Source of the DNA: an uncultured Burkholderiales bacterium
Lineage (GTDB): Bacteria > Pseudomonadota > Gammaproteobacteria > Burkholderiales > Burkholderiaceae
Assembly (NCBI GenBank): GCA_937891045.1
Contig: CALBEV010000187.1
Coordinates: 62,001-126,000, forward strand
Length of the DNA stretch: 64,000 nucleotides
Reading direction: 5' to 3'
A program made the translations under genes and the position numbers. This document shows, in pieces, positions 18,380-21,172 of this stretch; the stretch's first letter is position 1, and every line of letters starts with the position of its first letter. The notes under the pieces are model-generated. The model worked only from the letters and a program-made list of their open reading frames with translations. It was not told where the DNA came from and did no database searches.

Positions 18380-19840
18380 ATGATTTCACGCGAACCCACC
18401 CTCGAACGTTTGTCCTTGGCGCAAAGCCTCTTGCTCACCCCTTACGGACTGGACGAATCCCACCTCACCCAAGCCTTGTCGGCCATCCGCGCCCACCAAG
18501 TGGACGATGCTGATTTGTACTTTCAGTACACCCGCTCGGAGGGTTGGAGCTTGGAAGAGGGGATTGTGAAAACTGGCTCGTTCAGTATTGATCAGGGTGT
18601 GGGTGTACGGGCCGTTAGCGGAGAGAAAACCGCGTTTGCTTATTCGGACGATATATCCATGGCCTCGCTCATGGATGCCGCCCACACGGTGCGCAGCATC
18701 GCTGCTGCCGGTTTGAACGCCCGCACCAAGGTCCCCAGCCGCGTCATCGCCCCCAGCCGCCAGCTCTACCATGGTGAAGACCCGATTGGCAGCTTGGACA
18801 GCACCGCCAAAGTGCAGTTGCTCGAGCGTTTGGAACAGCAAGCCCGCGCCAAAGACCCGCGCGTGGTGCAGGTCATGGCTGGTTTGGCCAGTGAATACGA
18901 TGTGGTCATGGTGGCGCGTGCCGATGGCACCCTGGCTGCCGATGTGCGCCCTTTGGTGCGCTTGTCTTTGTCGGTCATCGTCGAGCAAAACGGTCGCCGC
19001 GAAAGCGGTTCAGCCGGTGGCGGCGGTCGCTTTGGTTTGGGTCATTTCGATGCGGGATGCCTCACGCGCTATGTCGAAGAAGCCGTCGGCTCGGCCCTCA
19101 CCAACTTGGAGGCCCGTCCAGCACCCGCTGGTGAAATGACCGTGGTGTTGGGCTCAGGTTGGCCCGGCATCTTGTTGCACGAAGCCATCGGCCACGGCTT
19201 GGAAGGCGATTTCAACCGCAAAGGCTCCAGTGCCTTCAGTGGCCGCATTGGCCAACGCGTGGCTGCCAAAGGCGTCACGGTGCTGGACGATGGCACCATT
19301 GCCGATCGCCGTGGCTCGCTCAACGTGGACGACGAAGGCCATGCCAGCCAGAAAAATGTCTTGATTGAAGACGGCATCTTGGTCGGCTACATCCAAGACA
19401 GCATGAACGCCCGATTGATGGGTGTGGCTCCCACGGGCAATGGTCGCCGCGAAAGCTACGCCCATGTGCCGATGCCGCGCATGACCAACACCTACATGTT
19501 GGGTGGCGATAAACACCCCGAGGAAATCGTGGCCAGCATCAAAAAAGGCCTGTACGCCACCAACTTTGGTGGTGGTCAAGTGGACATCACCTCGGGCAAG
19601 TTTGTGTTCTCGGCCAGTCAAGCCTATTGGGTTGAAAACGGCAAGATCCAATACCCCGTCAAAGGCGGTACCTTGGTCGGCAATGGTCCGGATGCCTTGA
19701 CACGCGTGAGCATGATTGGCAATGACATGGCGCTGGACCCGGGTGTGGGCACCTGCGGCAAAGAAGGCCAAAGCGTGCCGGTGGGTGTGGGTCAACCCAC
19801 GCTGCGCATCGATGGTCTGACCGTGGGCGGTACCGCTTAA
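18380..19840 (+). CDS. tldD: TldD, metalloprotease of the TldD/TldE pair
   Basis: Zinc-dependent protease subunit that with TldE (PmbA) degrades unfolded peptides and matures some modified peptides. About 486 residues. The HExxxH zinc motif HEAIGHGLEGDF is near residues 267-278, preceded by GSGWPGILL; the C-terminal glycine-rich segments (GTCGKEGQSVPVGVGQPTLRI) are typical. The start ATG 18380 (MISREPTLERL) follows TCCTACAATGCGGTC with no clear Shine-Dalgarno sequence; nine upstream in-frame codons are unsupported. No tldE in the window. Confidence 0.93.
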   Translation: MISREPTLERLSLAQSLLLTPYGLDESHLTQALSAIRAHQVDDADLYFQYTRSEGWSLEEGIVKTGSFSIDQGVGVRAVSGEKTAFAYSDDISMASLMDAAHTVRSIAAAGLNARTKVPSRVIAPSRQLYHGEDPIGSLDSTAKVQLLERLEQQARAKDPRVVQVMAGLASEYDVVMVARADGTLAADVRPLVRLSLSVIVEQNGRRESGSAGGGGRFGLGHFDAGCLTRYVEEAVGSALTNLEARPAPAGEMTVVLGSGWPGILLHEAIGHGLEGDFNRKGSSAFSGRIGQRVAAKGVTVLDDGTIADRRGSLNVDDEGHASQKNVLIEDGILVGYIQDSMNARLMGVAPTGNGRRESYAHVPMPRMTNTYMLGGDKHPEEIVASIKKGLYATNFGGGQVDITSGKFVFSASQAYWVENGKIQYPVKGGTLVGNGPDALTRVSMIGNDMALDPGVGTCGKEGQSVPVGVGQPTLRIDGLTVGGTA

Positions 19841-19885
19841 AGACCATTGAAATTCACCAAAACAGCCTGTGGTACAGTCATCCTC

Positions 19886-19954
19886 ATGATTTCAGTTAAA
19901 TTTCACTTTGCCTATTTCTGGTTCTCACGCCCCACCGGCGGTCGAGAGGTCTGA
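19886..19954 (+). CDS. Leader peptide of aroG, 22 aa, aromatic-rich
   Basis: A 22-codon ORF (ATG 19886, TGA 19952) between tldD and aroG. Its middle reads KFHFAYFWFS: four Phe, one Tyr and one Trp among ten residues. This is the hallmark of an attenuation leader in which ribosome speed senses charged aromatic tRNAs, as known for pheA, pheST and trp leaders. An intrinsic terminator follows 30 bp after its stop and the first real gene is DAHP synthase. No Shine-Dalgarno sequence is visible; a weak TTGAAA (19847-19852) with TGGTAC or TACAGT about 17-20 bp on would place the RNA start almost at the ATG, so it may be leaderless. Confidence 0.75.
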   Translation: MISVKFHFAYFWFSRPTGGREV

Positions 19955-19991
19955 CCGCAAACAACGCGCTGAACTCCAAAACCAACCGCCG
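19936..19991 (+). promoter_or_regulatory. aroG attenuator: competing RNA pairings
   Basis: CGGCGGT at 19936-19942, inside the end of the leader ORF, is an exact copy of the terminator's 3' arm (19997-20003) and can pair with the 5' arm ACCGCCG (19985-19991), breaking the terminator. GCGGTC (19938-19943) can instead pair with GACCGC (19953-19958) to form a local hairpin. These exclusive pairings, next to aromatic codons, give the layout of a transcription attenuator; which fold accompanies ribosome stalling needs a folding calculation. Confidence 0.6.
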
Positions 19992-20011
19992 AAGCCCGGC
20001 GGTTTTTTTTT
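19984..20011 (+). terminator. Intrinsic terminator in the aroG leader
   Basis: AACCGCCG (19984-19991), loop AAGCC, CGGCGGTT (19997-20004), running into nine T residues (20003-20011). Perfect 8-bp G+C-rich stem with U-tract, placed 45 bp before the aroG start and after the leader stop. Its position before rather than after a gene marks it as an attenuator. Confidence 0.85.
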
Positions 20012-20056
20012 GCCACTTTCACTTTGTGCCTCGTTAAACGCCTTCAAGGAACTGCC

Positions 20057-21172
20057 ATGAAAACCCCCAAGCATGATGCTTATGCGCCGACCAACGATCA
20101 GACCAGCCAAACCGACAACCAACGCATCAAGGACATCACCGTGCTGCCGCCCCCAGAACACCTGATTCGCTTTTTCCCGATTGCTGGGACTGCGGTTGAA
20201 ACCCTGATCGCCAAAACCCGTCAGCGCATCCACAAAATCATGGCGGGCAAAGACGACCGCTTGCTGGTGGTCATCGGTCCGTGCTCCATCCATGACCCGG
20301 CCGCCGCACTCGACTATGCCCGTCGATTGAAAGCCGAGCGTGAGAAGTACGCCGACACCTTGGAAATCGTGATGCGTGTTTATTTTGAAAAGCCCCGCAC
20401 CACGGTGGGCTGGAAGGGCTTGATCAACGACCCCTACTTGGACGAAAGTTTCCGCATCGACGAAGGCCTGCGCATTGCCCGTCAGTTGCTGATTGAAATC
20501 AACCGCCAAGGCGTGCCTGCAGGCAGCGAATTTTTGGATGTGATTTCCCCGCAATACATCGGTGACCTGATCAGCTGGGGCGCCATTGGCGCACGCACGA
20601 CGGAGAGCCAGGTGCACCGTGAATTGGCTTCTGGTTTGTCAGCGCCGATTGGCTTCAAAAATGGGACGGACGGCAACATCAAAATCGCTACCGACGCCAT
20701 CCAAGCTGCGGCCCGTGGGCATCATTTTTTGTCAGTGCACAAAAATGGCCAAGTGGCGATTGTGCAAACCAAGGGCAACCCGGATTGCCACGTCATCTTG
20801 CGCGGCGGCAAAGCACCCAACTATGACGCTGACAGCGTTGCAACTGCTTGCCAAGAGTTGGAAGCCGCCAAACTGCCCGCCAGCTTGATGGTTGATTGCA
20901 GCCATGCCAACAGCAGCAAACAACACGAGCGCCAATTGGTGGTGGCCAAAGACATAGCGACGCAAATCGCCAGTGGATCAAACCGTGTGTTTGGCGTGAT
21001 GGTGGAAAGCCACTTGAAGCCTGGCGCCCAAAAATTCACACCTGGCAAAGACAAGGTAGAAGCTTTGGAATATGGTCAAAGCATCACAGATGCATGCTTG
21101 TCTTGGGATGACTCTTTGCAAGCTTTGGAGGCTTTGTCGCAAGGCGTCAGAACACGCCGCAACATCAAGTAA
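20057..21172 (+). CDS. aroG: 3-deoxy-7-phosphoheptulonate (DAHP) synthase, class I
   Basis: First enzyme of the shikimate pathway, condensing phosphoenolpyruvate and erythrose 4-phosphate. About 371 residues, AroF/G/H type. Motifs: LLVVIGPCSIHDP, KPRTTVGWKGLINDP, GARTTESQVHRELASGLS, GFKNGTDGN and MVDCSHANSSKQ. Start ATG 20057 is preceded by AAGGA with good spacing. The upstream leader peptide and terminator suggest control by aromatic aminoacyl-tRNA levels in addition to any allosteric control. Ends 11 bp from convergent mpl. Confidence 0.93.
   Translation: MKTPKHDAYAPTNDQTSQTDNQRIKDITVLPPPEHLIRFFPIAGTAVETLIAKTRQRIHKIMAGKDDRLLVVIGPCSIHDPAAALDYARRLKAEREKYADTLEIVMRVYFEKPRTTVGWKGLINDPYLDESFRIDEGLRIARQLLIEINRQGVPAGSEFLDVISPQYIGDLISWGAIGARTTESQVHRELASGLSAPIGFKNGTDGNIKIATDAIQAAARGHHFLSVHKNGQVAIVQTKGNPDCHVILRGGKAPNYDADSVATACQELEAAKLPASLMVDCSHANSSKQHERQLVVAKDIATQIASGSNRVFGVMVESHLKPGAQKFTPGKDKVEALEYGQSITDACLSWDDSLQALEALSQGVRTRRNIK

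Follow-up and report, generated by a model that had tools for sequence, protein, structure and literature searches.

The 216-base gap between tldD and aroG in the analyzed DNA, a 64,000-nucleotide stretch from an uncultured Burkholderiales bacterium (the window), very probably contains a ribosome-mediated transcription attenuator of the DAHP synthase gene, as judged from sequence comparison and RNA folding models. A short ORF with codons for products of the pathway stands directly before the biosynthetic gene, an intrinsic terminator lies between them, and complementarity, folds, and pair counts point to an antiterminator that excludes the terminator, would be free when a ribosome stalls, and would be covered when a ribosome reaches the stop codon. 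Comparison with related loci gives this proposed mechanism strong support.

Leader ORF, terminator, and predicted antiterminator upstream of aroG

The gene upstream of the leader, tldD, encodes a TldD/PmbA peptidase, ends at 19840, and lies on the same strand as aroG, which starts at 20057. The gap between them contains a 22-codon ORF, then a spacer, and then an 8-pair terminator with nine T residues. The aroG gene (20057..21172, + strand; ATG at 20057, Shine–Dalgarno-like AAGGA at 20047-20051) encodes a class I DAHP synthase, and its product matched Pfam DAHP_synth_1 with an E-value of 5.6e-97. The leader ORF, MISVKFHFAYFWFSRPTGGREV (19886..19954, + strand, including the stop codon; ATG at 19886-19888 and TGA at 19952-19954), carries the putative regulatory codons Phe6, Phe8, Tyr10, Phe11, Trp12, and Phe13 (19901..19924, + strand), and stalling at codons 10-13 is predicted to allow the antiterminator to form. 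A sequence scan located the terminator 5′ arm, AACCGCCG (19984..19991, + strand), and the 3′ arm, CGGCGGTT (19997-20004), with a T run at 20003-20011 (together 19997..20011, + strand); the stem-loop AACCGCCG-AAGCC-CGGCGGTT (19984-20004) has 8 pairs, 6 of which are G-C. The 5′ arm also serves as the 3′ strand of the putative antiterminator, whose 5′ strand, CCGGCGGT (19935..19942, + strand), lies within the ORF, equals the terminator 3′ arm, and was assigned from the conserved GGCGG/GGTGG and from pair counts. An earlier, sequence-only reading had described a 22-codon ORF with Phe, Phe, Tyr, Phe, Trp, Phe ahead of aroG, an intrinsic terminator between the two, and a 7-base identity with the terminator 3′ arm. 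The coordinates and residues of the ORF were reproduced, the terminator was found with its 8 pairs and T run, and the identity was verified for CGGCGGT (19936-19942), which matches part of the 3′ arm.

The two strands of the window hold 848 ATG ORFs with lengths of 10–40 codons, and no other than the leader ORF contained at least six aromatic residues in nine; 20 mononucleotide shuffles of the window yielded three such ORFs among 8565. The likelihood that such an ORF arose in the window by chance is low. CGGCGGT alone was not rare, with 15 copies on the + strand of the window, and the folding energy of the leader region was near that of shuffles (z = −1.55), the whole-region fold being uninformative. 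The weight of the case for an attenuator rests on conservation, not on the window alone.

For folding, a ribosome was assumed to mask approximately 9 bases downstream of the stalled codon, but never beyond GGCGG. Without a ribosome, folds of the window contained a protector structure (19925..19972, + strand), in which UCACGC (19925-19930) pairs with GCG/UGA (19966-19972) and GCGGUC (19938-19943) pairs with GACCGC (19953-19958), and its stem hid the GGCGG segment. Masking by a ribosome changed the fold in the sense proposed earlier: stalls on Phe11–Phe13 (for Trp12, with RNA up to the 5′ arm) gave the antiterminator, and a ribosome at the stop codon gave the terminator alone. The expected number of antiterminator pairs was approximately 7.5 for a stall at Phe13, Trp12, or Phe11, a weaker 4.5 at Tyr10, and 0.5 and 0.3 at Phe8 and Phe6, respectively; the first two Phe codons are predicted to be unproductive as stall sites in the window. 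A second antiterminator helix appeared in the fold between GAG (19946..19948, + strand), which also drew on own-versus-swapped partners in 161 leaders, and CUC (19974..19976, + strand), and it was weak in the window (−3.8 kcal/mol). Complementarity, folds, and pair counts agreed with the earlier proposal that the 7-base segment can sequester the terminator 5′ arm. When the full RNA was folded with a stalled ribosome, the terminator still beat the antiterminator at equilibrium, including over 19931-20004 in the window. Because the terminator wins at equilibrium once its 3′ arm has been made, the switch must be kinetic, set by the order of synthesis.

In the mechanism that we propose, a promoter within the 45 bases that separate tldD from the leader ORF would start the transcript at or beside the leader AUG, and a ribosome would load there without a Shine–Dalgarno site. 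If charged tRNA-Phe, -Tyr, and -Trp are ample, the ribosome would reach the stop codon and cover CCGGCGGU, so that the terminator hairpin would form and transcription would end near 20011. If a charged aromatic tRNA is short, the ribosome would stall on Tyr10-Phe11-Trp12-Phe13 and cover the 5′ strand of the protector stem; CCGGCGGU, thereby freed, would pair with the terminator 5′ arm while the 3′ arm has yet to be synthesized, allowing read-through into aroG. In this scheme, we infer the stalling, the kinetic choice of structure, the start site, and the individual responses to Phe, Tyr, and Trp.

Conservation of the leader upstream of aroG genes

The best 80 aroG loci of a longer list of relatives, 79 of which have enough upstream sequence, were compared. 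This set includes comamonads, Burkholderia, Cupriavidus, Massilia, Xanthomonas, Dyella, Polynucleobacter, and others; among the matches listed, the closest named relatives of aroG were mostly comamonads, with up to 87% identity. A covariance model built from an alignment of 38 leaders (R1) matched 62 of the best 80 loci. Leader and terminator occurred together at 62 of the 79 loci (61 detected by a script and L079 separately), and none of the 17 leader-less loci of the 79 contained a terminator; two of these 17 (L052 and L055) hold a weak, chance-like aromatic ORF. The pattern named in the sequence-only reading as contrary to attenuation, in which the terminator is kept and the aromatic ORF is gone, was absent from these 79 loci. 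Alignment of the related upstream regions bore out its expectation of conserved aromatic codons, with mixed measures of pair covariation, as described below. By this comparison, the ORF, the terminator, and the segment shared between them are conserved features preceding DAHP synthase genes.

The leader-less loci include three of Polynucleobacter and a chromosome 2 copy of Cupriavidus necator. In this C. necator genome, the chromosome 2 aroG has no leader and another aroG has one (L032 and L087), and the paralogues appear to differ in control.

Survey of genomes with the covariance model

Of nine genomes reached through the loci, eight had a single strong R1 match, with E-values of 8.3e-17 or lower, and the ninth, a Polynucleobacter, had no match. 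In the draws of genomes from the order, the class, the phylum, and a second class, 109 of 399, 9 of 369, 50 of 398, and 9 of 337 genomes were matched, respectively; these tallies are not true frequencies, since only 8–9 candidates were scored per genome, some genomes were drawn more than once, and the matches include false ones and pheS leaders. The fetched loci, a set without three partial matches from the order draw, contained 187 R1 matches, of which 179 precede a DAHP synthase gene in the same direction; with duplicates excluded, these 179 gave 168 distinct leaders. The eight matches without a DAHP synthase gene comprised two full-length matches (L202 and L205) and six partial ones (L090, L124, L125, L200, L203, and L204), which were taken as chance or other terminators. 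In L124 and L125, GGCGG lies in a Gly-Gly-Met repeat at a gene end, presumably the tail of groEL, and is followed by a terminator, probably by chance. At L205:201-349, an aromatic ORF, MITFSAVFNAYFYWYRSSRRLQGASLD, and a terminator precede an unnamed ORF that does not encode DAHP synthase.

Separately from this set, loci were fetched from 20 of the 26 new phylum-draw genomes and contributed 17 matches before DAHP synthase genes. Fifteen of the 17 have leaders, MINLTATYWYFSSSLAAGGLRSI and MITVATSYFWYFSYDSLLAAGGSRSI among them, in which Phe, Tyr, and Trp are all represented, and in several the aromatic codons number only four or five, e.g., YWYFS; the remaining two, L222 and L223, resemble the Xanthomonas type. 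The other three phylum-draw matches, L213, L217, and L220, precede a pheS-like gene, as described below. Seven of eight matches in the second class lie before DAHP synthase genes, and the eighth is too close to the end of its contig for the downstream gene to be seen. Of the eight second-class leaders read, just two, L235 and L239, include Trp in the aromatic block, and L242 has one Phe and one Tyr only. No genome matched in the second-class draw had matched in the order or class draws. The leader family is present in this second class, probably Alphaproteobacteria as judged from ribosomal protein S12 sequences and from the lack of these genomes among the order and class matches. One genome, G310, has two DAHP synthase loci (L164 and L176), each with its own similar leader.

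Selection on codons and on RNA

Phe, Tyr, and Trp codons were found in 168, 156, and 100 of the 168 distinct leaders, respectively, and all three in 96; at least four aromatic codons were present in 165 (the exceptions being L196, L198, and L192), and the means per leader were 4.4 Phe, 1.9 Tyr, and 0.66 Trp. The aromatic and segment counts are not blind, because R1 was built from aromatic leaders and aromatic content guided the choice of ORF in every match. Aromatic residues accounted for 29% of leader codons versus 5% of aroG codons, and Trp for 2.8% versus 0.9% in the downstream genes, a threefold difference. Over the eight-codon stretch that ends with the final aromatic codon, comparison of 328 pairs of similar leaders, which are not independent of one another, gave 390 synonymous and 276 nonsynonymous single-base codon differences, with 96 synonymous ones expected. 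The differences numbered 652, 486, and 243 at the third, second, and first codon positions, respectively, and the share of the second position fits Phe-Tyr exchange. The synonymous excess indicates that the aromatic block is kept as codons, and this bias supports translation of the leader.

GGCGG or GGTGG followed the aromatic codons in 163 of the 168 leaders, being absent from L115, L139, L159, L191, and L023, and the distance from the last aromatic codon was 8–17 nt in 157 of the 163. The motif was in frame 0, 1, and 2 in 43, 10, and 110 leaders, respectively, and encodes, e.g., Gly-Gly, Arg-Arg, or Leu-Ala-Glu depending on the frame. In L009, L025, L029, and L030, the stop codon is immediate, and GAGG lies beyond it. 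The occurrence of the segment in all three frames indicates that it is kept as RNA; in the leaders compared, the aromatic block is thus under selection at the codon level, and GGCGG is conserved at the RNA level.

Leader Phe codons were mostly TTT (469 of 739), and aroG prefers TTC (TTT in 214 of 1236). This bias, seen in the window (19901-19924) and in its relatives, could make sensing sharper or help the leader to remain unstructured.

Pairing and folding across leaders

In 162 leaders, ribosomes were placed at 709 Phe, 297 Tyr, and 100 Trp stall sites, and at least five antiterminator pairs formed ahead of synthesis of the 3′ arm at 91%, 91%, and 98% of these sites, respectively, compared with 41% in a control with shuffled segments. 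Without a ribosome, 44% of the 162 leaders still reached at least five pairs, and by these folds the protector does not appear to be general among leaders.

In the alignment of 38 leaders, 93.2% of the cells were paired between the GGCGG segment and the terminator 5′ arm versus 15–62% when the partner was slid. The inner five antiterminator pairs were nearly invariant, and most of the variation sits in one pair, 57-128, which was CG in 18 leaders, UA in 10, UG in 2, and AU in 1 and was unpaired in 7. Five hundred shuffles never reached the observed number of cells paired, number of cells with changes on both sides, or covariation score; for two of the five measures, pairs with changes on both sides and pair types, the observed values were matched in 261 and 88 of the 500 shuffles, respectively. 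The mean energy of the antiterminator duplex over 133 distinct segment pairs was −15.9 kcal/mol with the own partner versus −14.5 kcal/mol with swapped partners, and none of 2000 permutations was as good, but the own partner was better than the median swapped partner in only 70% of the rows. Over 161 leaders, the second helix had values of −6.4 for own and −5.3 for swapped partners, with none of 100 permutations as good, and kinship among the sequences causes these pairing and duplex tests to overstate significance.

Predicted promoter and probable leaderless start

An extended −10 element, TGGTACAGT (19870..19878, + strand), was assigned 7 nt before the leader ATG from relatives aligned at the ATG, and transcription would begin with the A of this ATG or a base beside it. 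A scan of the window region with the sigma-70 consensus gave no promoter site. Across the 168 leaders, a −10-like hexamer ended 4–9 nt before the start codon in 89, versus 13.7 in shuffles, with a peak at 6–8 nt, and Shine–Dalgarno-like words preceded 10 leaders (18.4 in shuffles) and 107 of 141 aroG starts. The −10 spacing in 89 of 168 leaders and the frequency of Shine–Dalgarno-like words, no higher than expected by chance, suggest that the leader mRNA is probably leaderless, in support of an earlier conjecture. In leaders of the second class, the putative promoter consists of TGACA, approximately 17 bases, and CTATAT, with six or seven further bases before the ATG, and a Shine–Dalgarno-like word occurs in 2 of 22; L224, with no start codon at the matched place, was left out of this set. 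By eye, many leaders of Burkholderia and Oxalobacteraceae have the −10 element further upstream, and their 5′ UTR seems to be short and to contain no Shine–Dalgarno site.

Amino acids sensed and alternative explanations

The sequence-only reading had one leader sense Phe, Tyr, and Trp. Sensing of all three is plausible for the window and, by sequence, for its relatives; as a general statement it is weakened by the presence of Trp in only 100 of 168 leaders and by the reported response of the Corynebacterium attenuator to Phe and not Tyr. Of the aromatic codons listed in that reading, the first two Phe are predicted to be unproductive stall sites in the window. We give slightly less than an even chance to the view that one RNA switch of an undocumented family, present by descent or by transfer in at least two classes of the phylum (beta/gamma and an alphaproteobacterial-looking one), integrates the supply of charged Phe, Tyr, and Trp tRNAs where the shikimate pathway begins, acting from a leaderless mRNA via a kinetic antiterminator whose 5′ strand lies in coding sequence in any frame. 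It is also quite possible, if somewhat on the improbable side, that the same mechanism responds to Phe, or to Phe and Tyr, with the Trp codon being incidental, and that only a shortage of Phe-tRNA matters in practice. Phe makes up most of the block, Trp is absent from 68 of the 168 leaders and from the block of all but two (L235 and L239) of the eight second-class leaders, and the Corynebacterium AroR peptide (Phe-Tyr-Phe) is reported to be sensitive to Phe and not Tyr limitation (PMC11802643). Sensing of Trp is favored by its threefold higher frequency in leaders than in downstream genes, by the 15 phylum-draw leaders that all contain Trp, Tyr, and Phe, several of them with four or five aromatics in all, and by Trp stall sites, which fold as well as Phe sites.

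The terminated leader could instead act mainly in trans as a small RNA or peptide, with attenuation secondary, as with rnTrpL/peTrpL of Sinorhizobium, whose trpL is described as a leaderless attenuator RNA with trans activity (PMC7298713). We consider this unlikely, given that the element tracks DAHP synthase in cis (179 of 187 matches) and that the peptide C-terminus varies in frame and length while the RNA segment is retained, which speaks against a conserved peptide function. The remaining explanation, an ordinary tldD terminator combined with a chance aromatic ORF, draws on the position of the terminator downstream of tldD on the same strand and on the tldD-like gene found within 400 nt upstream of aroG at 35 of the 79 named loci, including 31 of the 62 leader-bearing ones. 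It can be given almost no credence, since tldD is absent from the other 31 leader-bearing loci, all four loci with tldD before aroG and no leader (L026, L027, L028, and L065) also have no terminator, chance origin of the ORF has a low likelihood, and the aromatic block shows codon-level selection. The absence of a terminator from leader-less tldD loci and of tldD from half of the leader loci indicates that the terminator is tied to the leader rather than to tldD.

Relation to known attenuators

The aroR-aroF attenuator of Corynebacterium glutamicum was reportedly described by Neshat et al. in 2014. An AroR leader peptide with Phe-Tyr-Phe is reported to precede aroF (PMC4046766, PMC11802643), and transcription reportedly rises upon limitation of Phe, with Tyr having no effect (PMC11802643). 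As far as these descriptions allow comparison, that system likewise places an aromatic-codon leader before DAHP synthase with ribosome-mediated attenuation, but it belongs to another phylum and its reported peptide core has no Trp. The uORFC-13-1 motif before Acholeplasma aroF is reported as a predicted Phe uORF with 24 examples (PMC8632094). It similarly combines a uORF with Phe codon(s), a terminator, and a DAHP synthase target, all by prediction, but has a ribosome-binding site, belongs to another phylum, and requires at least one Phe codon only. Sinorhizobium meliloti trpL reportedly produces a leaderless leader mRNA starting at AUG (PMC7298713, PMC10117765); it shares with the aroG leader a proteobacterial attenuator and a leaderless start, probable in the latter, and differs in being a Trp leader with trpE as its target and with described trans roles of RNA and peptide. 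Attenuators of DAHP synthase genes are already known, and the aroG leader is a widespread and apparently new variant. The available passages of PMC2965389, PMC5343134, and PMC3766115 do not mention an aroG leader element, and among the papers listed, which exclude subscription journals, no title or abstract opening named one.

For the sequences searched, the aroG attenuator family has no match in Rfam, NCBIfam, or Pfam. The window scored 14.5 bits (E 7.6) against Rfam Phe_leader RF01859, below the cut-off of 55 bits, and had no T-box or riboswitch match at the Rfam gathering thresholds; the aroG loci L207, L010, L062, L070, and L237 had no Rfam match. Searches for named leader peptides gave no NCBIfam family for 5 peptides and no Pfam family for 4, and short peptides may escape HMMER. 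If the proposed mechanism holds, many proteobacteria would adjust entry into aromatic synthesis directly to the supply of charged tRNA, and the element would be relevant to metabolic engineering of aromatic compounds in these hosts. If, in addition, the leader senses all three amino acids, one RNA would perform the task for which E. coli employs TyrR, TrpR, and three DAHP synthases. The family offers a natural test case for whether one leader can report three amino acids and for attenuation on an mRNA without a ribosome-binding site.

The aroG leaders resemble those of pheST (PheM; Rfam Phe_leader RF01859) and pheA (pheL) in combining a Phe-rich leader with a terminator, and they differ from them in the target gene, the latter systems being known as Phe regulation. 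R1 cross-detects such leaders: the matches at L213, L217, and L220 have one common peptide, which we take to be E. coli PheM, and precede a pheS-like gene. L213, the one tested of the three, was identified as Rfam Phe_leader with 73.9 bits and served as a positive control for R1. The aroG leaders and these three attenuators may be related or convergent.
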